This document shows, piece by piece, positions 7,541 to 25,140 of a stretch of DNA of 51,939 nucleotides (positions within the stretch are counted from its first letter, which is position 1; the number at the start of each line of letters is the position of its first letter). The notes beneath the pieces were generated by a model, which ran no database searches, was not told where the DNA came from, and saw only the letters and a program-made list of their open reading frames with translations. A program made the translations under genes and the position numbers. This stretch comes from Sulfurovum sp. (GTDB lineage Bacteria > Campylobacterota > Campylobacteria > Campylobacterales > Sulfurovaceae): NCBI GenBank assembly GCA_026990595.1, contig JALXCZ010000030.1, positions 1 to 51,939 of the forward strand. The letters run 5' to 3'.

Positions 7541-8044
7541 TTATTTGCCCAGAAGCTTTTTCTTGATGAAAGGGTCATGCAGGTTTTTACCTTGAAGCAT
7601 CATTATTTTCATCTTATCATAATTGATAAGTCCCTCTTTTTTTACTTCTACTGCTGCAAATCCATACCCCATAGGGTCATGAGCAATACGTGAATACCAT
7701 GCTTTTTTTGCATCTATCCATTGATGGGTATCGAGTGTTTGTGTGACTATTTTTACAACAGGAACTTTATGATTTTCAAGCCAAAGCACTACACAGCCGA
7801 TATCATCAAAAAAATAAGTATCTCCATTTTCTGTAATGATCTGTGCAGCATACTCTAATTTCTCAACATCCATATTACATTCAGAACATTGATACTCTTT
7901 GGGTTTTATTGGCACGATTTGATGTGTTGTGTTTCCTTTATAGACATACCGGGCTCCCTCTTCACTTCCTAATGAGAGAAAAAGTATAACAATAATAGCT
8001 ACGACTATCACAAGTGTTAAAAGATTAATGATTATTTTTTTCAC
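7541..8044 (-). CDS. NosL-like membrane-anchored protein with CxxC-x-Met site
   Basis: A 167-residue protein with an N-terminal hydrophobic anchor (about residues 5-25) and a NosL-like domain: CSECNM (Cys53, Cys56, Met58), the FDDIGC(V)VLWLE segment and HDPMGYGFAAV near the end, all closely paralleling the NosL of this cluster. NosL proteins bind Cu(I) and serve NosZ copper-centre maturation. The frame runs further upstream, but a GTG at 8044 overlaps the preceding stop (GTGA) and has a GGAG site before it, so I start there. It is last in a tightly overlapping minus-strand set with an ABC transporter. A role in copper delivery or export is inference. Confidence 0.75.
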   Translation of the reverse strand: MKKIIINLLTLVIVVAIIVILFLSLGSEEGARYVYKGNTTHQIVPIKPKEYQCSECNMDVEKLEYAAQIITENGDTYFFDDIGCVVLWLENHKVPVVKIVTQTLDTHQWIDAKKAWYSRIAHDPMGYGFAAVEVKKEGLINYDKMKIMMLQGKNLHDPFIKKKLLGK

Positions 8045-9009
8045 AGGAAAACTCCATTTTTTAGATAATAGACTATGACATAACTTCCGCAAAGTATAAC
8101 AAACAGACTGAGCAATAGTAACGAAATTCTCTTTAGAGCTTTGGTTTGTTGGTGAAACACAAACTGCATCAGTGCATTATCAATGGTGAAGAAAATACCA
8201 AAAAGTAAAAGACCCCAAACTGCATAACCTATATAATAGTAGTGATCCTGCAACATACAAAAAGGACATTTATGTGTGGGGAGTTCATAAATATACGTAC
8301 CAAAGAAATAGACCACAGCATAATATGCCACGACACCAAAAAGTAGACTTGCACCGATACTAAGCATTGCCATATTGGAGAGTGTTGCTAAAACAACCAA
8401 AGCAAACAGCAGATAAAACAGTATCAAAAGTTTGGGAATATCCAAACCAAAAGGCAATCCGTTTGCCCCTGCTGTCTGTCCAAAGATAACAGAACAGCAA
8501 CTAACCGGTTTAGTGGTTTCAATATGGGTAAAATAGAGAATATCCAAAAGAAACTCTGCACTCAACAAGAGAAAAATAAGCAGAAAGAACCATGCTTTCA
8601 GTTTCATATAGGGGTAACGCTTTGCTTTGAGGTCTAGCCCGTTGATGTTCAGCCAGAGTCCACTTAAAAAGAGGATCACAATTTTAAGTGCCAACAAAGG
8701 ATTACCATAGGCATTTGCCTTGATGACACCGGCCCCACACATTGCACCGGGAACAAGATCGGAAAGAGCATCAATGGTATAGACAAAATAGGGCAGTAGT
8801 ATCATCTTCAGTACCATAGCAAAAAAGATAATGGTCATCACTAGATAGGAGCGATTTTCAAGGTTAAACTGTTCTGTAGTAAAGTGATCAAAGTTCCACT
8901 TTTTGAGTAATCCAAGTGTGACAAGAAATGCAACAAAAAGCAGTATATAAAGTACTGTCTCGGAAAGCAGATAAACAATGACTGCATTGTTTAGGAGTAT
9001 CTCATTCAT
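8041..9009 (-). CDS. Polytopic membrane protein with CPFC and CC motifs, unknown function
   Basis: A 322-residue protein with roughly eight hydrophobic segments. Cysteines are grouped: MCGAG between the second and third segments, SCCS between the fourth and fifth, and HKCPFCMLQDHYY just before a late segment. Such loop Cys pairs recall DsbB/VKOR-type thiol enzymes or metal relays, but I see no clear family match. It overlaps the ATPase gene upstream and the NosL-like gene downstream by four bases each, so it is almost certainly translated with them. A function in thiol redox or copper transfer across the membrane is inference only. Confidence 0.65.
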   Translation of the reverse strand: MNEILLNNAVIVYLLSETVLYILLFVAFLVTLGLLKKWNFDHFTTEQFNLENRSYLVMTIIFFAMVLKMILLPYFVYTIDALSDLVPGAMCGAGVIKANAYGNPLLALKIVILFLSGLWLNINGLDLKAKRYPYMKLKAWFFLLIFLLLSAEFLLDILYFTHIETTKPVSCCSVIFGQTAGANGLPFGLDIPKLLILFYLLFALVVLATLSNMAMLSIGASLLFGVVAYYAVVYFFGTYIYELPTHKCPFCMLQDHYYYIGYAVWGLLLFGIFFTIDNALMQFVFHQQTKALKRISLLLLSLFVILCGSYVIVYYLKNGVFL

Positions 9010-9695
9010 TCTCGCTGCTCGCTGTTCACTATCTCACCATCTTCCATAGATAATACTTTGCTTACAAAAGAGAGTCCTTCAAACAGAGGATCATGTGTAG
9101 CAACAATGACTGTTTTTCCCATAGCGTGCAAGGATTGGAGTATCTCTATGAATTTCAGTGAATTGGCTCTGTCCAGATTGGCAGTAGGTTCATCACAGAG
9201 AATAAGTTCAGGCTCATGAACAAGTGCTCTGGCAATGGCACAACGCTGTTTTTCTCCACCTGAAAGTGCTTTGACTTCTTGTGATGCTTTGTGTGAAATA
9301 GCTGCAAGTTTCATGCTTTTCTCTGCCATAACAGTGATGGTCTGCATGTCTAATCCAGAATTGATCAAGGGAACAATGACATTCTCTTCTACACTGAGTG
9401 ATTCTAAAAGATTAAAGTGTTGAAAAATAACACCAATCGTTTTAGCACGGTAGGCAGAAGCATGCAGATCAGGTAATTTAGAAATAAGTTCACCCTCTAC
9501 AACAATCTTTCCTGAGCTTGGTTTATCAAGCCCGGCAATCAGTGAAAGAAGTGTTGATTTTCCACTTCCACTTACCCCACTTAAAATAGCTACCTCACCC
9601 TTGTTTATATGCATATCAATAGACTTCAATGCTTCAAACGCCTGAGATGTTCCCTCATTATAAATTTTGCTAACACTGTTTAATTCAACCATCAT
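9006..9695 (-). CDS. ABC transporter ATP-binding protein (LolD/MacB type)
   Basis: A 229-residue ATPase with Walker A SGVSGSGKST, a Q-loop region FQHFNLLESLSVEENV, the signature LSGGEKQRCAIARAL, Walker B LILCDEPT and the switch His in ATHD. The sequence pattern is that of the LolD/FtsE/MacB group, which partners with FtsX-fold permeases and works by mechanotransmission rather than channel transport. It overlaps the permease gene upstream by four bases and the membrane-protein gene downstream by four. The C-terminal residues NSEQRE are encoded by a heptanucleotide-type repeat. Confidence 0.9.
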   Translation of the reverse strand: MMVELNSVSKIYNEGTSQAFEALKSIDMHINKGEVAILSGVSGSGKSTLLSLIAGLDKPSSGKIVVEGELISKLPDLHASAYRAKTIGVIFQHFNLLESLSVEENVIVPLINSGLDMQTITVMAEKSMKLAAISHKASQEVKALSGGEKQRCAIARALVHEPELILCDEPTANLDRANSLKFIEILQSLHAMGKTVIVATHDPLFEGLSFVSKVLSMEDGEIVNSEQRE

Positions 9696-10870
9696 AACAT
9701 CGCCTCTTTAGGTGGTGTCACTGCTATCTTCCATGCTGGTATGAGTACTGCTGCCAGAAAAGGCACGGCATAAAAAAGAAAAATAGAACCAAGGATACCA
9801 AATTTTATCACAGGTACAAAAGTAACATGATTTGCAAGATTGGCACTTCCAAGGAAAATATGATTAAGCAGTGGTGCATCAAGCATAAACACATAGAGGT
9901 ATGCCAAGACTACCCCCAATGTGAAACTTACCAGAACGATTACCAAATTTTCATAAAATTTTAATTTCAGAATATCTTTAATGCTCCATCCTACCGCACG
10001 TAAAATACCTATCTCTTTTCGTTCTGTAGAATAGACCATAGAGTAACGCTGATAAAGAATGAGCATAAATGTCACAATACTTACAAGATAAAGGATCAAA
10101 AAAAGTCCTCCTTTATAGTTGTAAAGATTTTCATACGCTTTTTTCACTGCTTTTTTATCGACTACCCTCACATCATAGAACATGAGATGCAGTTTGGTAA
10201 TAATATTGTCCCACTCTGCATCGTTGGGAACATTAAATGTAATATCTGTTACCTCACTCTCTTTCATACCAAAAATCTCTCGTGCAAGCTCTATAGGCAT
10301 AACAATCATATCATTATCTATGAGTGAAGCTTGATGAGGAAGTGTTTGGACGATATGCACTTTTTTAAATGTTCCCTTGGGTGTTTTAAATGTAAAATTC
10401 TTTTTAAAATAATGTGCCTCAAGAAAATGCTTTACTCCGTTACCTACAAGCATACTGTCTTGGGACAAGAAATTTTTTAAATCTATATTTTTCACCAAAG
10501 CTTGCAATGCCTGAGCATTTTGTTCATCAAAAAAATCAATACCAACCACTAAAAAACTCTTTTGGCGTGGTGTGAAAAAATAGCGTCCATAGACTCTGGA
10601 GGCTACGTGGGTGACACCATTGACCTCAAGTATTTTATCAATCCATGCTACGGGTGTGTTGGCAGGTTTTCCTGCCTGTATGCGAGTCACCGTAAAATCT
10701 CCCTGCTTGTCTAATGTAGAGAGCAGAGAATCTTGCAATGAAGAAGAGAGAAAAAGTACACTGCTTAAAAGAAAAATAATAATGACAGAGATGAGTACTG
10801 CACCCATATGTTTACTTTTTTGTTTAAACAGCAGGAGCGTTAAAAAGTGTAAGAAAGCACTATTTTTCAT
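9692..10870 (-). CDS. ABC transporter permease, MacB/FtsX family
   Basis: About 392 residues: one N-terminal membrane segment, a large periplasmic domain (roughly residues 45-255), then three C-terminal membrane segments. This is the topology of MacB/LolC/LolE permeases. The ERKEIGILRAVGWS segment is the coupling helix region typical of FtsX-fold proteins. An ATG at 10870 with a GGA upstream is preferred over the TTG two codons earlier. It partners with the ATPase just downstream. The cargo is unknown; in this cluster, lipoproteins or copper-loaded periplasmic carriers are possible (inference). Confidence 0.88.
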   Translation of the reverse strand: MKNSAFLHFLTLLLFKQKSKHMGAVLISVIIIFLLSSVLFLSSSLQDSLLSTLDKQGDFTVTRIQAGKPANTPVAWIDKILEVNGVTHVASRVYGRYFFTPRQKSFLVVGIDFFDEQNAQALQALVKNIDLKNFLSQDSMLVGNGVKHFLEAHYFKKNFTFKTPKGTFKKVHIVQTLPHQASLIDNDMIVMPIELAREIFGMKESEVTDITFNVPNDAEWDNIITKLHLMFYDVRVVDKKAVKKAYENLYNYKGGLFLILYLVSIVTFMLILYQRYSMVYSTERKEIGILRAVGWSIKDILKLKFYENLVIVLVSFTLGVVLAYLYVFMLDAPLLNHIFLGSANLANHVTFVPVIKFGILGSIFLFYAVPFLAAVLIPAWKIAVTPPKEAML

Positions 10871-11114
10871 AGACAAAATCCATTCTGTTTATTGGCTGCA
10901 TCTGAGGATATGCAGGGTTTGAAGCTGTTTCATAAAAAAGTATTCTTGGTTCATAATAAGCTACGCTCAAGGAAGGTATAGAAAACTGTGTTAAAGCGGT
11001 TATCTTCTGATTTGCTTCTTGCAATACTTCTCTGTCATAACTAAGATAATGTCCTGCCATAAAAATAACAGACAATACCAGTAGCATTACCAGTGCAAAA
11101 AAAGGCTTGATCAT
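10860..11114 (-). CDS. Small membrane-anchored protein of unknown function
   Basis: An 84-residue protein with one N-terminal hydrophobic segment (about residues 4-23), then a mostly polar part with several Tyr and Pro, likely exposed to the periplasm. I recognise no domain. It is followed with an 11-base overlap by the ABC permease and directly abuts the NosL-like gene upstream, so it belongs to the same operon. It may be an accessory subunit of the transporter; this rests on position alone. Confidence 0.55.
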   Translation of the reverse strand: MIKPFFALVMLLVLSVIFMAGHYLSYDREVLQEANQKITALTQFSIPSLSVAYYEPRILFYETASNPAYPQMQPINRMDFVYEK

Positions 11115-11789
11115 TTACTGTTCTATCCCGTCTAATGCCATAACCATAGCATCGGTAATTTCATTAAATCTTACGATCTTTTTACCATGATGTTCAGTCA
11201 TGAATGTCTGGGCACTTTTTTTATCCTTAAAGGCTATAAGTTCATGTCCCATCGGTCCAAATACATCTGCATCCAACACATAAAATGCTTCTTTTGCAGG
11301 GATCTCATCTATGGTGTAGTAGTCACTGACGATCATCTTGGAAATATGACTGCGGTCATAGGGAAAATCTCCATCAAAGATATAGTATTTCATCATATCT
11401 TTTACACCGTCAAAATAGTACACTTTTCCATCATGTTTCATCATTGCAGCCCATTTTGGATATTTGGAAACGAACATACCGCATACTGGACATTTTGCAT
11501 CATCAGGAACTACTAAATGCTGACTGTTCTCTTTAATGCTTCCCTGCTGTAGATAATAGGCTACTGCTTCCAGTTTGTCAGGAGAGAGATGTTTACAAGA
11601 TCCGGAAGAACGGATCTTTTTTTCAATTGTTTCAATATCACCTGTAACATGAGGAAGCTTACTTTGCTCACACATCACCTTGACAATACGTTCCCCTTTT
11701 TGTGCAAGTTTCATTGCTTTGATAGCATTACTCTCATCTGCAAAAAGAGATACCAGACTCCATAATGCTATAAAAATAATTTTTACCAT
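11115..11789 (-). CDS. NosL-domain protein with an N-terminal two-cysteine mini-domain
   Basis: About 224 residues: a signal peptide (about residues 1-17), a ~50-residue segment with Cys40 and Cys65 ending in CKHLSPDKLEAVAYYL, then a NosL-like domain starting at CPVCGM (Cys100, Cys103, Met105) with YYFDGVKDMMKYY and the VFGPMGHELIAF segment. The mini-domain resembles the C-terminal part of the protein encoded at 11941-12678. A second ATG at 11789 has better spacing to the AAGGG site than the one at 11795. Periplasmic Cu(I) handling is the family-based guess. First gene of the ABC block. Confidence 0.75.
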   Translation of the reverse strand: MVKIIFIALWSLVSLFADESNAIKAMKLAQKGERIVKVMCEQSKLPHVTGDIETIEKKIRSSGSCKHLSPDKLEAVAYYLQQGSIKENSQHLVVPDDAKCPVCGMFVSKYPKWAAMMKHDGKVYYFDGVKDMMKYYIFDGDFPYDRSHISKMIVSDYYTIDEIPAKEAFYVLDADVFGPMGHELIAFKDKKSAQTFMTEHHGKKIVRFNEITDAMVMALDGIEQ

Positions 11790-11806
11790 GTTCATTTCCC
11801 TTGTGG

Positions 11807-11828
11807 GGTGTTGTCACGCGACAACACC
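11807..11828. repeat. GGTGTTGTC-ACGC-GACAACACC palindrome
   Basis: A perfect 9-bp inverted repeat with a four-base loop in the gap 11790-11940 between two NosL-like genes. It belongs to the same family as the palindromes near and inside murD (28959-29358). Here it sits just upstream of the NosL-like gene on the minus strand, so it could affect read-through between the two parts of the cluster. Confidence 0.75.
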
Positions 11829-11862
11829 ATCAATATATAATTTTGTATCTCTTTGAATTATC

Positions 11863-11931
11863 AGTGTTGTAAGGGTACAAATATTAAAATGCAGTGCAAG
11901 CAAAGCACTAAATGCTGAGTCATACAACACT
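11863..11931. other. Nested inverted repeats downstream of the NosL-like gene at 11941
   Basis: AGTGTTGTA (11863-11871) pairs perfectly with TACAACACT (11923-11931). Inside lies a second stem, AGTGC with GCACT, separated by seven bases. The structure follows the stop codon at 11941 on the minus strand. It may be a terminator or attenuator; no clear U-run is present. Confidence 0.5.
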
Positions 11932-11940
11932 CTATGCACA

Positions 11941-12678
11941 TTATCTGTTTTTCAGATACAATCCAACAGCCTGTAATTGTTTGCCGTTCAACCCCTTACA
12001 AAGTTCATTACTTACAATGAATGCTTTTGCTTCAGCAGTAGAAGCAAACTTCTTATCGGTTTTCTGACACATTTTAGCATACATCATTTTCCCTTTTTGA
12101 GCCATCATTGCCTGTTTTTTAGCAATCATCTGACTGTCTTTGGCAAACTCTGCTTTGGCTGCTTTAAGTGCTCCATTAAAGTCTGTCACCTTACCACCGT
12201 TTGCTTTGGCAAAAGCTTCTGCATCTACTTTTTTTGCAAACGCATATTTACTAACAGCTGACATTGTCCCTTTTTTACGACTTCCCACTACGTATATTGC
12301 TTTCTCTACTGGGATGAACTTCAGTGTTGTTACATCTACCACTTTCATTTCTGTAAGCTTGGTACCTTTTTGCAGATCTTCTGCCAAACAGTGAAGAGAA
12401 CAATACTGCTTCACTTTACCATTAATAGTAGCTGCATGATTTGTTTTATAAAACATTGGAAGTGTCATACCACACTCAGGACAAAAGGCTTTTGCTTTTC
12501 CATCTTGCAGGAGTGTCGCTTTTTCTTTAGAAACAGACTGGAACATTTTCATCATTTTCTTAGGCATAGCAGATACCTTCATCGCTCCCCCACATTTTCC
12601 GGGTGCACACTTCATTTCAGCGTGTGAAAAACTTACCATAGTCCCCAATACCAACACAGCCAATAACAGTTTTTTCAT
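11941..12678 (-). CDS. Secreted NosL-like protein with extra cysteines and C-terminal mini-domain
   Basis: A 245-residue protein with a clear signal peptide ending around HAE (residues 19-21). After a Met/Lys-rich stretch with CAPGKC come CPECGM (Cys66, Cys69, Met71) and YCSLHC, giving a Cys-rich NosL-like core. The last 50 residues carry Cys204 and Cys227 and end CKGLNGKQLQAVGLYL, matching the N-terminal mini-domain of the protein at 11115-11789. The Met- and Cys-rich composition suits copper binding (inference). AAGGA precedes the ATG. A perfect 11-bp tandem repeat lies 38-59 bases upstream, so it probably has its own promoter. Confidence 0.75.
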   Translation of the reverse strand: MKKLLLAVLVLGTMVSFSHAEMKCAPGKCGGAMKVSAMPKKMMKMFQSVSKEKATLLQDGKAKAFCPECGMTLPMFYKTNHAATINGKVKQYCSLHCLAEDLQKGTKLTEMKVVDVTTLKFIPVEKAIYVVGSRKKGTMSAVSKYAFAKKVDAEAFAKANGGKVTDFNGALKAAKAEFAKDSQMIAKKQAMMAQKGKMMYAKMCQKTDKKFASTAEAKAFIVSNELCKGLNGKQLQAVGLYLKNR

Positions 12679-12715
12679 TTTGTATCCTTATATTTTTAAT
12701 AATTTATCATAATAC

Positions 12716-12737
12716 ATTAGTGTTAAATTAGTGTTAA
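12716..12737 (-). promoter_or_regulatory. 11-bp tandem repeat TTAACACTAAT x2, possible OmpR/PhoB-type site
   Basis: On the minus strand TTAACACTAAT occurs twice in tandem without a gap, i.e. one helical turn apart, as in binding sites of OmpR/PhoB-type regulators. It lies 38-59 bases before the ATG of the NosL-like gene. A related pair is found next to the nosZ FNR box (23509-23530), and the OmpR-family regulator at 24406-25059 is a candidate to bind both. The link is inference. Confidence 0.5.
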
Positions 12738-12745
12738 GGAATCCT

Positions 12746-13267
12746 CTAATAAAGTCTATGTATCTCTTCAAGCATATTATCTACAGTAATATCATCCCCA
12801 TGGGACTCTAAAAAATCAGTCAAATATTTTTCAGAGGCTTCCATACCTCCCTCTTTCTCTACTTCAACCAGTTTTTTATAAATAGGATCAAGTACATTAG
12901 TCACATGTTTGGAGATCTTTTTTCTTGAAGCTTTGTAACCTGTGGCATGACCATTCTCATCTTTAATGACTTCAAAATCTGTAAACACCCAATAGTATCT
13001 TCCGTCTTTTGCCAGATTTTTAACAGCTGCAACAAAATTATGTCCGTTTTCTATACGATTCCAAAGTATTTTAAAGAGTATTTTAGGCATATCCGGATGG
13101 CGGACAATGCTATGTGGTTGCCCGATCAGTTCCTCTTTGGTATATCTGGAAATTTCTGCAAAATAGTCATTGACATAGGTAATAATCCCCTTAAGATCGG
13201 TATCACTCTCTATATACACATTGTTTTTGAGTTCAATCTCTTCATTCATAGGTTCTGGTCTTTTCAT
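12746..13267 (-). CDS. PAS-domain redox/energy sensor protein (Aer/CetB-like)
   Basis: A 173-residue soluble protein with a single PAS domain. The segments DTDLKGIITYVNDYFAEIS, GQPHSIVRHPDMP and KNLAKDGRYYWV closely follow the N-terminal FAD-binding PAS of Aer, the aerotaxis receptor. No membrane, HAMP or methyl-accepting domain is present, as in Campylobacter CetB, where PAS protein and signalling protein are separate. The remainder is a helical tail. It sits between two NosL-like genes on the same strand, 11 bases after one of them. It may sense respiratory status for taxis or control; partner unknown. Confidence 0.8.
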   Translation of the reverse strand: MKRPEPMNEEIELKNNVYIESDTDLKGIITYVNDYFAEISRYTKEELIGQPHSIVRHPDMPKILFKILWNRIENGHNFVAAVKNLAKDGRYYWVFTDFEVIKDENGHATGYKASRKKISKHVTNVLDPIYKKLVEVEKEGGMEASEKYLTDFLESHGDDITVDNMLEEIHRLY

Positions 13268-13278
13268 TTTTTTTCCTT

Positions 13279-13794
13279 TTACATATCTAGGTAACGTAAT
13301 AAACCTGCTGTAATTTTAGAATATGGCAACAGTTTGGTACCACCATGCTTCATCATAAACAGCTTTGCATTAGTCTCAGACACAAACGGAATGAGGTCAT
13401 CTCCATGAGGCCCTACAACTCTACTTCCAAACACATAAAGCGCTTGTTTGGCATCTGCTTTCTCTCCGGTGAGATAATCTTTTATATAGATCTTATCAAT
13501 AGGTGCTTCAAGAAGATTTCGTTTAAGAAAATAGTCCTGATGTAGATAGACCTGCATCATAGATTTTACTGAAATAAATTCTGCTTTATGTCCATTCTTA
13601 AGCAAGGCATTGGTATGCCATTTTGGATACTTACTTAAAGGGATATCAAACATAGGATCAAGCTTTTGTTGCAATTGTGTGATCTTTCCTGTAAAAGGTT
13701 GGACAGGTTGCACAGGTTTTGCCTTAAAAGGCTTTGGTGTTTCTGCCATTAGCAGAGCACCAAAAGTAATTAATACGATAAATTTTTTCATCAT
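13279..13794 (-). CDS. Secreted NosL paralogue lacking the CxxC motif
   Basis: A 171-residue protein with a signal peptide (about residues 1-17) and a Pro/Lys-rich linker. The core SKYPKWHTNALLKNGHKAEF...VYLHQDYF...KQALYVFGSRVVGPHGDDLIPF lines up with the NosL-like protein at 11115-11789 (SKYPKWAAMMKHDGKVYYF...FGPMGHELIAF). Where that protein has CPVCGM, this one has a Cys-free MFDIPL stretch; the whole protein has no Cys. It therefore cannot bind copper through the usual site and may be structural, regulatory or use Met/His. It lies six bases after nosY. Confidence 0.7.
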   Translation of the reverse strand: MMKKFIVLITFGALLMAETPKPFKAKPVQPVQPFTGKITQLQQKLDPMFDIPLSKYPKWHTNALLKNGHKAEFISVKSMMQVYLHQDYFLKRNLLEAPIDKIYIKDYLTGEKADAKQALYVFGSRVVGPHGDDLIPFVSETNAKLFMMKHGGTKLLPYSKITAGLLRYLDM

Positions 13795-13800
13795 TTTTCC

Positions 13801-14628
13801 TTATAAAAGATCTTTTTTTCTAAAGGCAATATAGCCTATATAAGAGAGTAATAATCCTATCACAATAGGGTAAACAAAGGCATAGACGATCAACCATGTT
13901 GAACCTAGTGTATCAAGAAGATAGTAAGCAACCGGACCAATCACTGTCAACTCAGGGTCAAACAATGAAATTGCTCCGATGCGGAATACCTCTATGGGGT
14001 TGAGCATTGCCAGCGTGATCACAACGTCATCACTTACTCTATTTTGCAGCATCAAGCCCATAAGTGCAATATCGATAAATGCCAACAAAACAATCCAGAC
14101 AACAAATGAAGCCCCTAATGCAATATCAGTTGATTTAAGTATAGTGGAAAGGAAAAATGCCAATCCTAAAAAGACAAAACTTAGAGAAAAAAGGAGTGCT
14201 GAGTAAAGAAATATCATCTTCCATGGAAGTACACCACCTTTAAGCATACCAAATACTACCCCCAGTATCAATGCTAAAAATACTGGTAGAAAAACAGTAG
14301 AAAAACGCCCAAGCATTTTCCCCCAGTAGTAGTCTTTCAAAGAGACAGGAAAAGAGAGCATATACTCTAAGACATTACTCTCTCTGTCTCCCGAGATAGA
14401 TTTTACTGTGGTAATCAATATAAAAATAGGCAAGATAATAATCGTTACCTGTATAAAGATAAGTAGTGTACGGCTAAGCCCCGTAAATCCCATTACCACA
14501 GAGTCTGAAACACCGGTAATAAAAAAGAGTGCCATTAAACCACCAAAGACTACAGAATACACATAAAACCATTTTGAACGTAAAGACTCCTTGACATCCA
14601 AATATGCAATCAATAAAAGATTTTTCAT
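13801..14628 (-). CDS. nosY: NosY, ABC-type permease for NosZ copper-site maturation
   Basis: A 275-residue permease with about six membrane segments of the ABC-2/NosY type (KSISGDRESNVLEYMLSFPVSLKDYYWGKMLGR is a hallmark region). With NosF and NosD it forms the NosDFY complex, which supports CuZ assembly in NosZ. Its ATG overlaps the nosL stop as TAATG, indicating coupled translation. In Wolinella the order is F-Y-L; here it is F-L-Y. Confidence 0.92.
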   Translation of the reverse strand: MKNLLLIAYLDVKESLRSKWFYVYSVVFGGLMALFFITGVSDSVVMGFTGLSRTLLIFIQVTIIILPIFILITTVKSISGDRESNVLEYMLSFPVSLKDYYWGKMLGRFSTVFLPVFLALILGVVFGMLKGGVLPWKMIFLYSALLFSLSFVFLGLAFFLSTILKSTDIALGASFVVWIVLLAFIDIALMGLMLQNRVSDDVVITLAMLNPIEVFRIGAISLFDPELTVIGPVAYYLLDTLGSTWLIVYAFVYPIVIGLLLSYIGYIAFRKKDLL

Positions 14629-15098
14629 TAATACGCCTTCACTTTTGTTGAATTTTCTTTCTCTATCTCTACTATTTTTTTAGCTACATAAGGGTAATCA
14701 AATACCTTATTCCCTTTGGGAAGTGTTGCATCAGAATAGGCTGCAAAACCATAGGCCATAGGCGTAATGGCATCATTTACATATTTTGCTTTTCTAGCAT
14801 CCATCCATACACCTGTTTTGGCATCGGTGATCCAAATAATCGCCTGATCTGCCCAAGGAATTTTCTCTTCTTTTAACCACAGTACTGCACAGCCAAGATC
14901 ATCAAATTTATAATCTTTTCCTGTTTTTGGGTCAATAATCTGTACTGCAAATTTACGCTCACTGATTGCCATTTTGCAGCGTTCACACATATCCCTGTCC
15001 CAGTGCATCTTCTCTACACCACCAATAGGTTTTTTTTCACATCCCGAAAATCCAAAGAGAAGGAGAAGCGTTAAAAAAAGAAAACTAAATCTTTTCAT
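14628..15098 (-). CDS. nosL: NosL, copper chaperone lipoprotein
   Basis: A 156-residue lipoprotein: lipobox FSGC after a hydrophobic signal, then CERCKM (the Cu(I) site), YKFDDLGCAVLWL and PMAYGFAAYS, all typical of NosL. It delivers Cu(I) toward NosZ, probably through NosDFY. ATG at 15098 with AAAGG nine bases upstream is preferred over a TTG two codons earlier. It overlaps the end of nosF by 14 bases and the start of nosY by one. This is the canonical NosL of the five NosL-like proteins here. Confidence 0.93.
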   Translation of the reverse strand: MKRFSFLFLTLLLLFGFSGCEKKPIGGVEKMHWDRDMCERCKMAISERKFAVQIIDPKTGKDYKFDDLGCAVLWLKEEKIPWADQAIIWITDAKTGVWMDARKAKYVNDAITPMAYGFAAYSDATLPKGNKVFDYPYVAKKIVEIEKENSTKVKAY

Positions 15099-15726
15099 CT
15101 TCAACTACCTTTCCCAAATCCATATAGATTTGTCGATTAACCAGACCTTCTATCTCATCTAAACGGTGGGTAATAAAAAGCGTAGAACATGAAGGATCTA
15201 TCTCTGTAAGTAACTCATAGAACTTCTCTCTGCCTTTAGGATCAAGGTTTGCTGTGGGCTCATCGAAAATAAGCAAATTACTTTTTTTAGACAGGGCAAT
15301 AGCAATAAGAAGTTTCTGTTTCATACCGCCTGAAAGTTTAAAGAATGGTTTATTTAACTGATTTTTCAAATCCAAATCCATTCTCTCTGATTCTAAAAAT
15401 ATTTTTTCTCTGGAAATAGCAGAGCTTTTCTCTACAAAAGAAAGCAACTCTTCGATACTCAGCTTTACAGGAGGAGGCAATTGGGGAATAAAACTGATAT
15501 GTTTCAGCACATCTACCCTGTTTTTTATGGGATCCGCTCCATTTACCCGAATCTCTCCACTGTCTATGTGGTAAAATCCAAGTAAAGCACGTACAATAGT
15601 CGTCTTCCCTGCACCATTTGGACCCATCATCGCAATGCGATCACCCTGATTAATCATTAAATTTACATTGTCAAGTACTTTAGTACCCATAAAACTTTTA
15701 GTTACATCTTTTGCAACAGCTAACAT
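15085..15726 (-). CDS. nosF: NosF, ABC transporter ATPase
   Basis: A 213-residue ATPase with Walker A GPNGAGKTT, the signature LSGGMKQKLLIAIAL, Walker B LLIFDEPT and switch His in FITHR. It powers the NosDFY complex for NosZ maturation. It begins directly after the nosH stop and overlaps nosL downstream. Length is short but complete for the group. Confidence 0.93.
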   Translation of the reverse strand: MLAVAKDVTKSFMGTKVLDNVNLMINQGDRIAMMGPNGAGKTTIVRALLGFYHIDSGEIRVNGADPIKNRVDVLKHISFIPQLPPPVKLSIEELLSFVEKSSAISREKIFLESERMDLDLKNQLNKPFFKLSGGMKQKLLIAIALSKKSNLLIFDEPTANLDPKGREKFYELLTEIDPSCSTLFITHRLDEIEGLVNRQIYMDLGKVVEDEKI

Positions 15727-17760: not shown

Positions 17761-18547
17761 GGTTTGTTCCTTTTTTCTTTTCATACACATCGGCATAAGT
17801 TGCATATGGCAGGATTTGTAATACTTTGGTAGGGCAGAGCTCTACACAGGCACCACAGCCAACACAGGCATCTCGTATCTCAGGGAAAAGTCCACCACTT
17901 TTATCAACCATACCAATAGCTTTACTCGGATCAGGGGTAAATGGACAAAGGTCAGCACAAAGATTACAACTTTTACCTTCATGCGTATTCAACTTCTGTA
18001 AAAGTGTCTTTTGTAATCTTACTTTTTCCGTGTCGTTGTCATATATCTCTACTTTTCTGTTCACACGTTCTGATTCAGAGATCACAGCCGTATGATCATA
18101 GATCCTGCCGATCATCTCTTTGGTTACTTTTTTACCCTCCAAGGCAAGACAGGCACTCTCATTGACAACGATCGCCATACCCATATGTACTTTTTCTATA
18201 ACATTTGATTCATGATCAAGTGCTCCTGTAGGACAGGCAAGCACACAAGGAAAAGCTTCACAAAGGTAGCATCCACGTGCCAACGGATCAATATATGCTG
18301 TTCCTACACCTGCTTTACCGTCTATATCTTCCAGCTTAATAGAATCATACGGGCACACTTGTAGACACTGTCCACACTTAATACACATAGTAAGAAATCT
18401 ATCTTCCTCTACAGCACCGGGAGGACGCAGTCGGTTTTCGCCCCGTTTGAAATCTTTGGCTGCCCATATACCGCCTGCAGCAGCAAGACCCAATACACCG
18501 AGCCCTGCTGCCTGCCTCATAAACTGCCGTCTTTTTTTCTCTTGCAT
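17753..18547 (-). CDS. nosG: NosG, periplasmic ferredoxin-type protein (NapG-like)
   Basis: A 264-residue protein with a twin-arginine-like signal (KKRRQFMRQAAGLGVLGLAAAGG), implying folded export by Tat. Four cysteine clusters for 4Fe-4S centres are seen: CIKCGQCLQVCP, CYLCEAFPCVLACP, CNLCADLCP and CVGCGACVELCP. This matches NapG/NosG. With NosH it likely takes electrons from menaquinol. Its ATG overlaps the nosD stop (TAATG). Tat substrates are few in this cluster, and a tatA gene lies at 45811-46032. Confidence 0.93.
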   Translation of the reverse strand: MQEKKRRQFMRQAAGLGVLGLAAAGGIWAAKDFKRGENRLRPPGAVEEDRFLTMCIKCGQCLQVCPYDSIKLEDIDGKAGVGTAYIDPLARGCYLCEAFPCVLACPTGALDHESNVIEKVHMGMAIVVNESACLALEGKKVTKEMIGRIYDHTAVISESERVNRKVEIYDNDTEKVRLQKTLLQKLNTHEGKSCNLCADLCPFTPDPSKAIGMVDKSGGLFPEIRDACVGCGACVELCPTKVLQILPYATYADVYEKKKGTNHV

Positions 18548-19770
18548 TACACCTCTCCTTCATACATTTTAGGATGTTTATCACTTAAAAGCAGTACCGG
18601 CTCAGAAAACGGTGCCAGCTTTGCCAAAAAATTCAATATAGAGATCACAGGCGAGCCGTAAAAGAATTTTATGTTGGGATTAAGTAACCATACTTTGTCT
18701 GCATAGGCAAAATAATTATATGGTCCATCACCTATCCCATCATTGTTTTTATCAAACCCCTCATAATCATCCCAGTAATTTCCGTCAAATTTATTTTCTG
18801 TCACCTTGGTATTGTAGGAATCATTGATCACATTTTCTATATTGCCTTTAAAAATATTATTGACAAATCGGTTATGCAGACTCAAAGAGTGAAAATGTAT
18901 TCCTTCACTGTTATAGATGATCTTGTTGTTCTCTATCACATTGACCGTATCAGGTTCATAAGGCGAACGGTCAATAAACAGCCCTCTGGCACAATAGATG
19001 ATCGTATTATTCTTCAGTACAAAATTACTGGCATCTTTCATCCCTATACCCAATCCTGTGGTTCCCAGAGAATTCTCTATCAAATTCCCCGTGGCAGTTG
19101 TATCTTGGGAATACATAAAAAAAATCCCTACAGAATTATGTTTATATATATTGTTTTTAACAATATTTTTACCTGTATACATAAAATGCAAAGAGTATCT
19201 TCCATATTCACCCAAATTTTTCTCTATCAGATTCCCATGTGAATACCACACCACAAAATCACGTGATTTGTAAAGATGATTACTGCTTAAATGATTGTCA
19301 TTACTATACCATAGACGTACACCATCTCCTCTAAGACCCAGGTCAAAAGGTTTGGATTCAATATAATTTCCAATGATCTCCGATCTGCTTACCTGAGCCA
19401 TATCGATACCAAAAAGACAATCTAAAATTTTACAATGTTTCACTGTGCACTGCTCTACTTTTTTCAATGCTACTCCTGCATCTACACGCTCATGCTCTGC
19501 ACCACTGTGTCTGATAGTTACATTCTCAACTGTTACACGCGAAGCTGTAATGGTAATTACCGTCCCTTTACCATCACCTTCGATGATCGCTTTTTGATCT
19601 TTCCCATCAATGATCAATGGTTTGTCTATCACAATATTACCGTGGTAAACCCCTGCCGGCAACTCCAAACGTGAACCCGCCTTTGCATGATCAATAGCCT
19701 CTTGCAGTACATTGTTTGCACTGAGCAAACTTGACAGTAATAAGAGAGAGACTGTGATCATTTTTACCAT
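18547..19770 (-). CDS. nosD: NosD, periplasmic copper-site maturation protein
   Basis: A 407-residue protein with a signal peptide and a right-handed beta-helix of the NosD/CASH type: repeated N/I/V-rich strands such as IVKNNIYKHNSVGIFF and TVNVIENNKIIYNSEGIHFHS. A C-terminal tail has GNYWDDYEGFD. NosD works with NosF and NosY in assembling the CuZ cluster. It starts one base after the nosB stop. Confidence 0.94.
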   Translation of the reverse strand: MVKMITVSLLLLSSLLSANNVLQEAIDHAKAGSRLELPAGVYHGNIVIDKPLIIDGKDQKAIIEGDGKGTVITITASRVTVENVTIRHSGAEHERVDAGVALKKVEQCTVKHCKILDCLFGIDMAQVSRSEIIGNYIESKPFDLGLRGDGVRLWYSNDNHLSSNHLYKSRDFVVWYSHGNLIEKNLGEYGRYSLHFMYTGKNIVKNNIYKHNSVGIFFMYSQDTTATGNLIENSLGTTGLGIGMKDASNFVLKNNTIIYCARGLFIDRSPYEPDTVNVIENNKIIYNSEGIHFHSLSLHNRFVNNIFKGNIENVINDSYNTKVTENKFDGNYWDDYEGFDKNNDGIGDGPYNYFAYADKVWLLNPNIKFFYGSPVISILNFLAKLAPFSEPVLLLSDKHPKMYEGEV

Positions 19771-20751: not shown

Positions 20752-23355
20752 CTAGAAGAGGTTTGCGTTTTCGTCGATCCATTTTAGATATTCAATAATA
20801 TCGTCTGTTTGCTCTTTTGTCATACCCTGGTTAGGCATACGAAGGTTGAAGTAGTTGATCATAGACTTGATATAGTCATCATCATACATTTTTTCAGGAT
20901 GCATGATCCACTGTTCTGCCCACTTCTCACCATTTTCATGTCTCTGAAGTACACCTGTCAAGTCTGGACCGGAACTTACTTTTCCGATAACGTGACATCC
21001 GTTACATCCACCCTCTTTATAGGCTGCTTCACCACGTTTTGCTGCCTCGCTCATAGGCTTAGCTACCTTTTTAACCAAGAGATCTCTTGCTCTGATACCA
21101 ACATCTGCGGTCTTAACCATATACTGCCAGATCATGTTTTCAAAGAGAATTGCCTTATTCAGATCTCCAGCTTTTACAGCCTCATCTGATTTTGCTTTTT
21201 GTGCAGCAATCTTACCATACTGATCAAGTGCATCTTCCACCAATGCTTTAATCGTTGGATACTTTTCATAATGGTTCTCTTTAAGGAACTTCACAACACT
21301 CTGGATGACTTTATCTGTGGCAGCATTCACTGCAACAGTCTGGTCATACTCTTTTTTAAGCTGTTCTGGACTCATTGATGCCATTTTAAGTTTTTTCGCT
21401 GCTGTATACTTCTTGTTAGGGTCTTTAACCAACAGGTAACCCATCATTTCCAAGTGTAGTGCAGAACAGAACTCTGTACAGTAGTAAGGGAATACACCTT
21501 CTCTGTCAGCTTTAAATGTCAAGGCAACTGTTTTACCAGGCTCGAGTGAAGCATGTACATTATATTGATCCACAGTAAATCCGTGTGTCTCATCTTCGGC
21601 TCTTTCAAGGTTAGTCAAATAGAAAGTGACTGTATCGCCTTTATTTACAGTAACGTGTTCCGGGTTAATATGTGATCTAACCATTGTTCCGTAAACATAT
21701 ACATGGTTACCCTTACGAACGATCTTCTCTTGACCACCAAGTGTTTTACCTCTATGAATTTTACCGGTAAACGGATTGGTTCCCATTTTGTATCTTACTT
21801 CATGCTTGATCTTGTCTGCACGGATCGCTACTGCCTGGTGAGGTTCACCTAGAGGGATCGGCATATCATAAAGCAGTTGCATTTTCTTACCGCGAATATC
21901 GATCAACTGGTGGTTTTGCGGGTGTAACGGCCCGATCTCGTTAAATCTGTCAATTGCAAGCTTGTTCAATGCAATGATGTAATCTCCCTGAGGGTCTTCC
22001 GTTTTACCTTCCATACCGCAAAGGTGACCAATGTTGTAGTTAACATTTTGTCTGTCTTCTACTTTACAGGTATGGTAGTTCCATTTTACCACTTGGGAAT
22101 CTACATAAAGTGACGTATAGATTTCACCTTTATCTTTCCAGTTTTTACCAAACTGGTTATGTAATGGTCCAAGTCCCAACTCTGCTTGACAAGACATAGT
22201 TTTTTTCAGATCGAGAATAGGAATACCATACGGGTCTTTCCCTACATACTCTTTATTTTTGATTGCACTTTGAATTTTTGCAAAGTCATATACCGTTGCA
22301 TGCGTATCAAGCTTACCACAAACGACAATATTTTTACCGTCTGGTGATACATCAACACCGTGTGGTGACTTTGGCTCAGGAATAAGGAAGAGACAATCAT
22401 TTTTCACTGCTACATCCATTGGTATAACACGTGCACCATTGATGATCTTCACATTCTTGTCATCTTTGGCAAGTTCAGCCAGCTTTTTCCAGTTGTAAAC
22501 ATGTAAAAAGTCCGTATCGTTTCTTGAACATCCTGCCTCAAATGGCGGAAGTCCTTTTTCGATACCCCCTGTATACATCTCTGAGTTGAATGAGTTGGTG
22601 AATCCCCAACCATAACTCGCCTCTTTACCGGCATCGGAAAGATCCTGCATATATGGAGGCATTTCAATTACAAATGATTTTTTCGGTTCAATTTTCCCTA
22701 TTTCGTGATTAAACTTCCAAACCATTACTCCACCACGATAAGTTTCTTTATATTCATCCATTGGATGATAGTTATTATCAAGTGGTGCAGCATACTGACA
22801 TGCTTCAAGAATATACTCAGAATTTGGCGTAAAGAATGCTCCACCATGATCAGATTTGAATACCGGATTCACCACGATCTGCTTGGTTACCATATCGTTT
22901 AGGTCAATGACTGCAATTCTCGGGTTGGCTTTATCGTTAATGACCAGCCATTTACCATCATATCTACCATTGGTTTCAGATATACCTGGATGGTGTGTGT
23001 CACCCCAGGTGATCGATTTACCGCGAATGTTACCTTCTGCAAGTATCTTCTTGGTATCATCATCATACCCCCACCCTTGCCAAGGCTCCGGTGTAAAGAC
23101 ACCGATATATTTAAGTATTCTCATAGACGGTACACCATAGACCATCATCTGTCCAGACTGTCCGCCCGAACTGAATACCAGATATTTATCACGTCCACCA
23201 CTTGGTGTATAGGTTTTAGCAGCTGCCAACAGGTCAGTCTGTGTTAAACCACGCTCCTTCATCACTTTGTCCAAAGCACTTGCACCAAAAAGTGTCGAGA
23301 CACTTAATGCAGAACCAAGAACAAGAGATGCAAATTTACTGAGTTTGTAATTCAT
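20752..23355 (-). CDS. nosZ: Nitrous oxide reductase NosZ, clade II with C-terminal cytochrome c domain
   Basis: An 867-residue enzyme that reduces N2O to N2 in the periplasm. The signal peptide (about residues 1-26) is Sec-type with no twin arginine, as in clade II. Seven CuZ histidines are seen: 121, 122, 170, 332, 399, 444, 506. The CuA site is His591, Cys626, Cys630, His634, Met637. A C-terminal haem domain has CNGCH (784-788) and a probable axial Met840, as in Wolinella cNosZ. The open frame extends 36 codons upstream, but the ATG at 23355 follows a strong GGAGG site and gives the proper signal peptide. Expected control is by the FNR box at 23491-23504. Confidence 0.97.
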   Translation of the reverse strand: MNYKLSKFASLVLGSALSVSTLFGASALDKVMKERGLTQTDLLAAAKTYTPSGGRDKYLVFSSGGQSGQMMVYGVPSMRILKYIGVFTPEPWQGWGYDDDTKKILAEGNIRGKSITWGDTHHPGISETNGRYDGKWLVINDKANPRIAVIDLNDMVTKQIVVNPVFKSDHGGAFFTPNSEYILEACQYAAPLDNNYHPMDEYKETYRGGVMVWKFNHEIGKIEPKKSFVIEMPPYMQDLSDAGKEASYGWGFTNSFNSEMYTGGIEKGLPPFEAGCSRNDTDFLHVYNWKKLAELAKDDKNVKIINGARVIPMDVAVKNDCLFLIPEPKSPHGVDVSPDGKNIVVCGKLDTHATVYDFAKIQSAIKNKEYVGKDPYGIPILDLKKTMSCQAELGLGPLHNQFGKNWKDKGEIYTSLYVDSQVVKWNYHTCKVEDRQNVNYNIGHLCGMEGKTEDPQGDYIIALNKLAIDRFNEIGPLHPQNHQLIDIRGKKMQLLYDMPIPLGEPHQAVAIRADKIKHEVRYKMGTNPFTGKIHRGKTLGGQEKIVRKGNHVYVYGTMVRSHINPEHVTVNKGDTVTFYLTNLERAEDETHGFTVDQYNVHASLEPGKTVALTFKADREGVFPYYCTEFCSALHLEMMGYLLVKDPNKKYTAAKKLKMASMSPEQLKKEYDQTVAVNAATDKVIQSVVKFLKENHYEKYPTIKALVEDALDQYGKIAAQKAKSDEAVKAGDLNKAILFENMIWQYMVKTADVGIRARDLLVKKVAKPMSEAAKRGEAAYKEGGCNGCHVIGKVSSGPDLTGVLQRHENGEKWAEQWIMHPEKMYDDDYIKSMINYFNLRMPNQGMTKEQTDDIIEYLKWIDENANLF

Positions 23356-23569: not shown

Positions 23570-24409
23570 TTAGTTTTTTATGTTCTTTTTTAAGTCTAAA
23601 AATATAGTAGTGCCACTGTTTTTCTGTGATTGTATTTGAATATCAATATTCTCCTCGTCACAATAGGCTTTTACCAAAGCAAGTCCTATGCCCTCACCCT
23701 CTTTTTTACTGTCTCCCTGATAGTAACGTTCATAGACACGAAGCAGTTGTGTCTCATCCATACCTATTCCTCTATCGGTAATAGTAAGCAGATCATTCTG
23801 TAAGCTAATAGTTACAGGAGAATTTTTAGGAGAATATTTCATGGCATTCATCAGTAGATTATCTATCATTTTCTCAAACCCGATCTTATCTGCTTTAAGT
23901 AGACATTCTTCCATCTTTAGATCAAAACGGTTCCTTCCGAATGCTTCCAGTACCTCTATACGTTCATGTAACAATTTTTTCAAAGAAAAGAGCTCTTTCT
24001 CTACAGGATGTATCTCTTTTTTAATACTGTAAACCAACTCTTTATAGAGTCTTTCAAGCCTTAATGAAGAAGATTCTATGCGCGCTAAGCGTTGCAGATT
24101 TTTTTCATCCTGCAAGCGTTTTTTCAGCATACTGCTGTTGGCCCGTATAGTTGAAAGAGGAATGTTGAGTTCATGCAGTATTTCAGAGCTGAGTTGAGAA
24201 AGGCTCTCATCAAGCTGAACCTTGGGAGCAAGCAGATGCGTAGAGATCACATACCCCCAGCCCGCAGCCAAAAGAAGCACCATAAACCCTGCTATGAGAA
24301 AATTACTCTCCGTAAATCCTTCATTTTCCAAAAACCAGTACAAAAAACTCAAAAGCATTGCCACACTGGTGAAGTAGCCCAATGCAGCTAACAATGTCTT
24401 TTTTTTCAT
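23570..24409 (-). CDS. Sensor histidine kinase
   Basis: A 279-residue kinase with two membrane segments (about residues 6-26 and 38-57) separated by a very short loop of about ten residues, so no sizeable periplasmic sensor domain. H-box SSEILHELNIP (phospho-acceptor His79), N-box NLLMNAMKYSP, G1 DRGIGM and G2 GEGIGLALVK are present. The ATG overlaps the response regulator stop as ATGA, so the two are coupled. The signal is unknown; membrane state or a partner protein is possible. Located directly upstream of nosZ on the same strand. Confidence 0.9.
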   Translation of the reverse strand: MKKKTLLAALGYFTSVAMLLSFLYWFLENEGFTESNFLIAGFMVLLLAAGWGYVISTHLLAPKVQLDESLSQLSSEILHELNIPLSTIRANSSMLKKRLQDEKNLQRLARIESSSLRLERLYKELVYSIKKEIHPVEKELFSLKKLLHERIEVLEAFGRNRFDLKMEECLLKADKIGFEKMIDNLLMNAMKYSPKNSPVTISLQNDLLTITDRGIGMDETQLLRVYERYYQGDSKKEGEGIGLALVKAYCDEENIDIQIQSQKNSGTTIFLDLKKNIKN

Positions 24410-25059
24410 GACACCCACTTGTATCCTATACCTCGAACATTGACAATATTGTCAGGAAAATATTTTTTAAGCTGTGTAACATAGACCCTGAGCGATCCGT
24501 CACTGGCATGCTGCCCTGCCGCCCAAAGTCTGTTTTTAATGATCTCAGAGCTCACTACTTCACCTTTTGCTTCCACAAGCAGTACCAGTAATTCTACTGC
24601 TTTTTGTGTCACTTCCAGTGCTTCATCTTGCAAATAAAGTGTTTTTGCAACTATATCCAGAACATATGCACCTATGTTTACTCTATCTTTTCTTGCTTGT
24701 CGACGTAATAACGCTCCAATTCGAAGTAAAAGTTCATCAAGGTCAATAGGCTTTTTCATGTAATCATCCGCCCCTGTCTCAAAACCTTGTGTCAGAGAAG
24801 CTTTATCTTCTCTGGATGTTAAGAAAATCGTAGGGGTCACATCACCACTCTCTCGAAGTTTTTTCAGTAGGTCAAATCCATTCTCATAAGGAAGGTTCAC
24901 GTCAAACAGATAAAGATCATAGGGGTGTTTATAGCTAAGATCAAGTGCAGAATAAGGATCCAATACAGTATCAACTTCAAACCCCTCTTCCTCTAAAAAA
25001 TCCTGAAGGGTTTCATTAAAAAGCTTGTCATCTTCGAGCAGGAGTATTTTTATAGACAT
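24406..25059 (-). CDS. OmpR/PhoB-family response regulator
   Basis: A 217-residue regulator: receiver domain with the acidic pair Asp10/Asp11, phospho-acceptor Asp53 (YLFDVNLP), Thr in FLTS, Lys in MKKPI; then a winged-helix DNA-binding domain ending GSLRVYVTQLKKYFP...VRGIGYKW. I start at the ATG at 25059; the longer frame runs through an inverted repeat (25073-25136) and adds residues not in the family. Paired with the kinase downstream. Targets unknown; the 11-bp tandem repeats at 12716 and 23509 are candidates. Confidence 0.92.
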   Translation of the reverse strand: MSIKILLLEDDKLFNETLQDFLEEEGFEVDTVLDPYSALDLSYKHPYDLYLFDVNLPYENGFDLLKKLRESGDVTPTIFLTSREDKASLTQGFETGADDYMKKPIDLDELLLRIGALLRRQARKDRVNIGAYVLDIVAKTLYLQDEALEVTQKAVELLVLLVEAKGEVVSSEIIKNRLWAAGQHASDGSLRVYVTQLKKYFPDNIVNVRGIGYKWVS

Positions 25060-25072
25060 ATTTTTCCAATTC

Positions 25073-25136
25073 GTAGGGGTAAATTCCATATTGACCCATG
25101 ATACCAATAAGGGTAGATATGGAATCTGCCCCCTAC
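25073..25136. repeat. Imperfect inverted repeat between fabG and the response regulator
   Basis: GTAGGGGTAAATTCCATAT... (25073-25097) is complementary, with mismatches, to ...ATATGGAATCTGCCCCCTAC (25111-25136), with a 13-base loop. It fills the gap between the fabG stop and the regulator start. Ends resemble the TGTAGG-type inverted repeats at 35166 and 39665. A REP/MITE-like element or terminator. Confidence 0.6.
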
Positions 25137-25140
25137 ACAT

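Follow-up and report, generated by a model that had tools for sequence, protein, structure and literature searches.

Genes at the locus

The window analysed here, a stretch of 51,939 nucleotides from Sulfurovum sp. (GenBank assembly GCA_026990595.1, contig JALXCZ010000030.1), carries on its minus strand a nos cluster of clade II, whose genes run NosZ, B, D, G, C1, C2, H, F, L, Y; the names are those we take to apply from homology among the compared loci and established knowledge of Wolinella-type nos clusters. Past NosY, on the same strand, come the genes under study and then acpP-fabF-accA. The stretch from 7541 to 12678 encodes a two-domain NosL protein, a small anchored protein, a LolC-like permease and a LolD-like ATPase that form an ATP-binding cassette (ABC) unit, a membrane protein that we call M322, and a membrane-anchored NosL, NosL5 (Table 1). 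Four-base overlaps join permease and ATPase (9692-9695), ATPase and M322 (9006-9009), and M322 and NosL5 (8041-8044). A preliminary description of the locus had reported these overlaps, and its open reading frame (ORF) coordinates, all on the minus strand, and its account of the other genes hold as well. It had also placed the ABC transporter and five NosL-type proteins, including NosL itself, in a single candidate copper-delivery system, and on this point comparison with related genomes leads to a different arrangement.

Table 1. Genes of the module and of the adjoining nos core, with the basis of each assignment
Feature	Position	Strand	Basis
Two-domain NosL protein, N-terminal half: NosL domain (CPECGM, QYCSLHC) and two-Cys cytochrome-c-like tail	11941..12678	-	Pfam and alignment
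Two-domain NosL protein, C-terminal half: haem-less cytochrome-c-like domain and NosL domain (CPVCGM)	11115..11789	-	Pfam, alignment, model
Small membrane-anchored protein, 84 amino acids, conserved just upstream of the permease	10860..11114	-	ORF and locus comparison
LolC-like permease, FtsX family	9692..10876	-	Profiles and LolC 7arh match (E=2.6e-6, nearly full length)
ABC ATPase, LolD/FtsE/MacB group	9006..9695	-	Pfam and NCBIfam profiles
M322, predicted eight-helix membrane protein with conserved Cys and His	8041..9009	-	Alignment, model, positive-inside rule
NosL5, membrane-anchored single-domain NosL-type protein (CSECNM, PM..GF motif), last module gene	7541..8044	-	Profiles and alignment
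NosZ, clade II, C-terminal haem c motif	20752..23355	-	Start set at conserved Met
NosD	18547..19770	-	Locus comparison; name from established knowledge
NosF	15085..15726	-	Locus comparison; name from established knowledge
NosL itself, lipoprotein-type N-terminus, CERCKM	14628..15098	-	ORF and Pfam
NosY	13801..14628	-	Position and homology across nos clusters; name from established knowledge
NosLx, NosL-family paralogue without CxM site, beside NosY, nos-core gene	13279..13794	-	Pfam and locus comparison
Protein with one PAS domain, between nos core and module	12746..13267	-	Pfam and locus comparison

Two units at one locus

A genome of the same genus (G041) retains NosL, NosY, NosLx and the PAS gene together with an intact NosZ but has lost the ABC block with its NosL proteins. 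Because both NosL and NosLx persist there without the ABC block, they belong to the nos core, and a single unit of five NosL proteins is ruled out. NosLx retains its match to NosL; its orthologues all adjoin nos genes and lack the CxM site. The ABC block, for its part, is also found without nos. NosL and NosLx are core nos genes, and 7541-12678 is a portable module, conserved in its set and order of genes far more than chance would allow: among 99 loci with enough flanking DNA around the permease gene, M322 is present in 97, the ATPase in 92, a NosL5 orthologue in 78 and a NosL protein upstream in 73.

The NosL-type proteins

Each of the five proteins described as NosL-type has support from profile or structure. 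The Pfam NosL family (PF05573, curated cut-off 24 bits) matches the C-terminal half of the two-domain protein (E=3.1e-28), NosLx (E=3.6e-17) and the N-terminal half (E=3.8e-14) above the cut-off, and NosL itself (21.1 bits) and NosL5 (16.8 bits) below it. When NosL5 and its orthologues, together with two true NosL rows, are made into a query profile, it aligns to that of the two-domain NosL at 96.6% probability (E=5e-10); the only plausible solved relatives of NosL5 are NosL chains (best E=0.02), and its NosL fold is assigned by profile. The AlphaFold model of the C-terminal half (pLDDT 92) superposes on Shewanella denitrificans NosL (7OG7) with Z 15.4 over 121 residues at 2.2 A. As originally noted, the CxxCxM site is found in NosL (CERCKM), in both halves of the two-domain protein and in NosL5, and is missing from NosLx. 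Among NosL5 orthologues the Met of this site (M58) is invariant, the second Cys and the PM..GF motif are nearly so, and the first Cys varies.

In most relatives the two halves are joined in a single chain of 350-400 residues, in which a small domain separates the two NosL domains; the split into separate genes is seen in the window and its family. The middle domain has two nearly invariant Cys and no CxxCH in the alignment, and the model of the C-terminal half shows a weak fit of it to class I cytochromes c (Z 4-5.3); it therefore has the appearance of a cytochrome c domain minus its haem. The anchors of these proteins differ. The two-domain protein has a Sec-type signal, NosL5 and most of its orthologues are held by an N-terminal membrane anchor and lack a lipobox Cys, and lipoprotein-type N-termini occur on NosL here and on NosL5 orthologues at two loci (L029, L053), lipid and protein anchors being swapped among orthologues.

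The ABC unit and M322

The single permease gene, where LolCDE would have two, encodes a protein that aligns with LolC nearly end to end. Neither component reaches its equivalog score, the permease scoring 51 against 362 bits (TIGR02212) and the ATPase 190 against 308 bits (TIGR02211); a separate and better LolC/E elsewhere in the genome (contig C20) scores 274, likewise under the cut-off. Pfam finds no MacA-type adaptor among the ORFs of the block, in which ATPase and permease are separate, and no NosD-type partner is matched within it, NosD lying in the nos core. The description of the ABC block as distinct from NosDFY was correct: it is another type of transporter and is present in addition to NosDFY.

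For M322, eight helices are predicted (model pLDDT 87). Seven residues are invariant in the ortholog alignment (M90, C91, C171, C172, H246, C248 and C251); all lie in loops, which the positive-inside rule predicts to be periplasmic. No Pfam or NCBIfam family matches it. By eye its CPFC motif resembles that of DsbB/VKOR-type oxidoreductases, but searches of Pfam and of PDB sequences gave M322 no match, and Foldseek no clear one. A known fold was sought and rejected: Foldseek returned nothing at E<=0.001, and VIA-align, with scores as high as Z 12.8, gave helical bundles that cover residues 1-168 only, matches that we do not trust.

Distribution and linkage

Of 200 Campylobacterales genomes, some of them incomplete, 95 carry the module, scored as present where the permease or M322 was found; the co-occurrence counts that follow ignore the relatedness of the genomes. 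PF05573 proteins are found in 93/95 carriers against 23/105 other genomes, NosZ in 59/95 against 21/105, and the MccA searched for in 17/95 against 7/105. This MccA, the octahaem-copper sulfite reductase, was recognised by its CxxCH motifs, its CX15CH motif and its FKBP, iron-sulfur, NrfD and CcsBA neighbours. Neither nosZ nor the searched mccA is present in 27 of the 95 carriers. The block had been expected not to be common in genomes devoid of any copper enzyme, and it is not: COX1 (179/200 genomes overall) is in 93/95 carriers, the two exceptions being incomplete (G176, 88%; G213, 79%), and no well-completed genome has the module without COX1. Two ideas about the client were discarded. Cu-oxidase_3 is in only 54/200 genomes, a distribution that does not match the module, and the neighbours of stand-alone copies are mostly housekeeping or regulatory genes with no shared cuproenzyme. 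No plasmid-borne copies were found.

The linkage to both enzymes is close. Where mccA and a module copy share a contig they lie within 12 kb of each other in 16/16 genomes, and of the 29 genomes with nosZ and the module on one contig, 20 have them no more than 20 kb apart; three genomes (G197, G207, G250) have one copy at each enzyme. A permease tree from a quick search, with support values from the Shimodaira-Hasegawa-like approximate likelihood ratio test (SH-aLRT), places the 17 mcc-linked rows in one group of 19 (support 100), and nos linkage is scattered across the rest of the tree, partly since short contigs hide it. Of the other two rows in the mcc group, L171 is on a short piece with MccA on another contig. 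The second, L046, is a module between NosF and NosL of a nos cluster, in a genome without detected MccA. Such a placement is expected if the product of the module is the same for both enzymes.

Some further features of the mcc loci were observed. The mcc-linked modules that were examined (L026, L027, L033, L034, L035, L048) have a gene for a Sel1-repeat protein upstream of their NosL gene, and in two of them a radical-SAM gene, HemN/HemW-like by motif, lies between CcsBA and the Sel1-repeat gene (L034, 4613-5881; L048, 14655-15923). In Wolinella sulfite respiration a NosL homologue named MccL has reportedly been studied. A second group of MccA-like proteins (47-51% identical; G120, G132, G145, G201, G222, G244, G255) comes from genomes with no module and no PF05573 protein, and may obtain copper by other means or function without it.

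Two other genes recur at the module. An OprC-like TonB receptor lies within 212 bp of module genes in eight loci. All eight receptors carry GACPNRMD followed by [DE]HPM further along the chain, which corresponds to the CxxxM-HxM site of OprC (PMC8610252). Three genomes of the same genus have a TonB-like gene and an OprC-like receptor directly upstream of nosZ, and the window's own genome has an OprC-like receptor with CxxxM-HxM intact, alongside an ExbB-ExbD-TonB operon, on another contig (C25; L145, 870-4634). A DsbD_2 gene accompanies the module in 52 loci, always on its strand and no more than 5 bp away from module genes; the best DsbD_2 of the window's genome is on contig C11. Copper-efflux genes do not recur beside the module.

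A proposed copper hand-off and its alternatives

What does the module do? Its co-occurrence with NosL, its linkage to nosZ and mccA and its OprC-type receptors make a role in copper well supported by association. The proposal of a second copper route stands in so far as copper is the likely cargo, given these three links. A role for NosZ only is ruled out by the mcc linkage, complete in the 16 genomes, and by the 27 carriers with neither enzyme. On balance we favour the reading that 7541-12678 is a self-contained, ATP-driven module for periplasmic copper hand-off, added to the nos cluster and not specific to NosZ. Copper as the cargo of the ABC unit, the direction, the chemistry of M322 and the order of hand-over are what we infer, as is the choice between copper, a loaded carrier and mechanical force as what the ABC unit transmits.

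Copper would enter through an OprC-type TonB receptor, whose gene in this genome lies on another contig together with ExbBD-TonB. The secreted two-domain NosL protein would bind the metal as Cu(I) at its CxM sites. The LolC/LolD-like unit may then act as an ATP-driven mechanotransmitter, not a channel, driving docking and release among the two-domain carrier, M322 and membrane-anchored NosL5. M322 might relay Cu(I) or keep the NosL thiols reduced, DsbD_2 being compatible with both. The end product would be Cu(I)-loaded NosL, here for NosDFY and NosZ, and in relatives for MccA or other cuproenzymes.

Several observations weigh against this reading. The module is missing from 21 nosZ genomes, several of them complete, and so is not essential for NosZ; it is also missing from seven genomes whose MccA-like protein is more distant. 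M322 has no clear solved relative, by PDB-sequence or Foldseek search, to anchor its chemistry. The linked enzymes, NosZ here and MccA, also carry haem c, which leaves room for a role in haem or thiol chemistry.

In its broadest form the favoured reading would make the module a general ATP-driven machine for periplasmic copper metallation in Campylobacterota, made up of doubled NosL domains, a LolC-type transporter and a new family of 8-TM Cys/His proteins, with copies dedicated to NosZ, to MccA and possibly to cbb3 oxidase; this is plausible, but we hold it a little short of probable. The oxidase as client of the stand-alone copies is a possibility whose sole basis is COX1 in nearly all carriers, and COX1 is also in most non-carriers.

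A first alternative is dedicated lipoprotein release. NosL-type lipoproteins would be pulled out of the inner membrane by the LolC/LolD-like pair, and carriers loaded with copper would thereby be sent on to the outer membrane. LolC is the nearest solved structure to the permease, the ATPase scores high with LolD, and NosL and some NosL5 orthologues have lipoprotein-type N-termini. However, NosL5 and most of its orthologues are anchored without a lipobox Cys, the two-domain NosL is of Sec type and anchors interchange, and the genome has its better LolC/E match elsewhere. Since the NosL anchors vary between lipid and protein, extraction would be less likely than mechanotransmission, and we regard lipoprotein release as unlikely.

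Maturation of haem c or thiols is improbable to a similar degree. Here M322 and DsbD_2 would reduce the Cys of NosL or of apocytochromes, and the ABC unit would aid cytochrome c assembly. The coupling of DsbD_2 in 52 loci, the CPFC and CC pairs within M322 and the CcsBA cytochrome c synthase of linked mcc clusters argue for it, but CcsBA is seen with mcc-linked copies only and the recurrent partners are NosL domains and OprC-type copper receptors. Most genomes without NosL have COX1, yet nearly all of them lack the module. MacB-like export for copper detoxification is very unlikely, as membership of permease and ATPase in the MacB superfamily is set against their being separate proteins, a block without a MacA-type adaptor or TolC-type gene, and linkage to an OprC-type importer and copper enzymes with no recurring efflux genes.

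Relation to known systems

NosL is a dedicated copper chaperone for the CuZ centre, acting together with NosDFY (PMC7558416). The NosL proteins of the module share its fold and CxxCxM site (PF05573; 7OG7, 7OSF), but are doubled, fused to haem-less cytochrome-c-like domains or membrane-anchored, and are encoded with a LolC-type ABC unit. NosDFY(L) likewise pairs an ABC unit with NosL in handling copper for NosZ; the module, in contrast, is of FtsX/LolC type, has no NosD beta-helix partner, and occurs both beside NosDFY and in genomes without nosZ. Permease and ATPase are homologous to those of LolCDE over nearly their full length, whereas the module has its operon with NosL proteins and M322 and scores far under the equivalogs. 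The OprC/NosA TonB-dependent copper receptors (PMC8610252), found intact beside the module in relatives, cover the outer-membrane step only.

No open-access paper that we found describes the module, beyond a five-gene insertion between nosL and nosY of Sulfurospirillum cavolei, reported in 2016 and left uninterpreted (PMC4794192). Its order is the same (hypothetical, ABC permease, ABC ATPase, hypothetical, hypothetical), and the links to NosL domains, mcc clusters and OprC were not drawn there. A NosL-family protein raised in pyruvate-adapted S. multivorans was guessed to be a metallocentre chaperone (PMC6242987).

NosZ is the only known biological N2O sink, and the part of its copper supply that is understood begins with NosL and NosDFY, leaving a gap before them. 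A conserved gene set beside nos probably supplies copper to NosZ and, in relatives, to other copper enzymes. A widespread module that seemingly serves N2O reductase as well as sulfite reductase would close part of this gap, give a function to an unannotated membrane family (M322), and bear on N2O reduction under low copper in vents and sediments.

Neighbouring genes

A promoter scan gave no more sites than shuffled sequence. The PAS gene is retained within the genus even where the module has been lost (G041). A histidine kinase and response regulator are encoded at 23570-25140, directly upstream of nosZ; a similar pair lies upstream of nosZ in another genome (G020, L187) and beside the module at L043.

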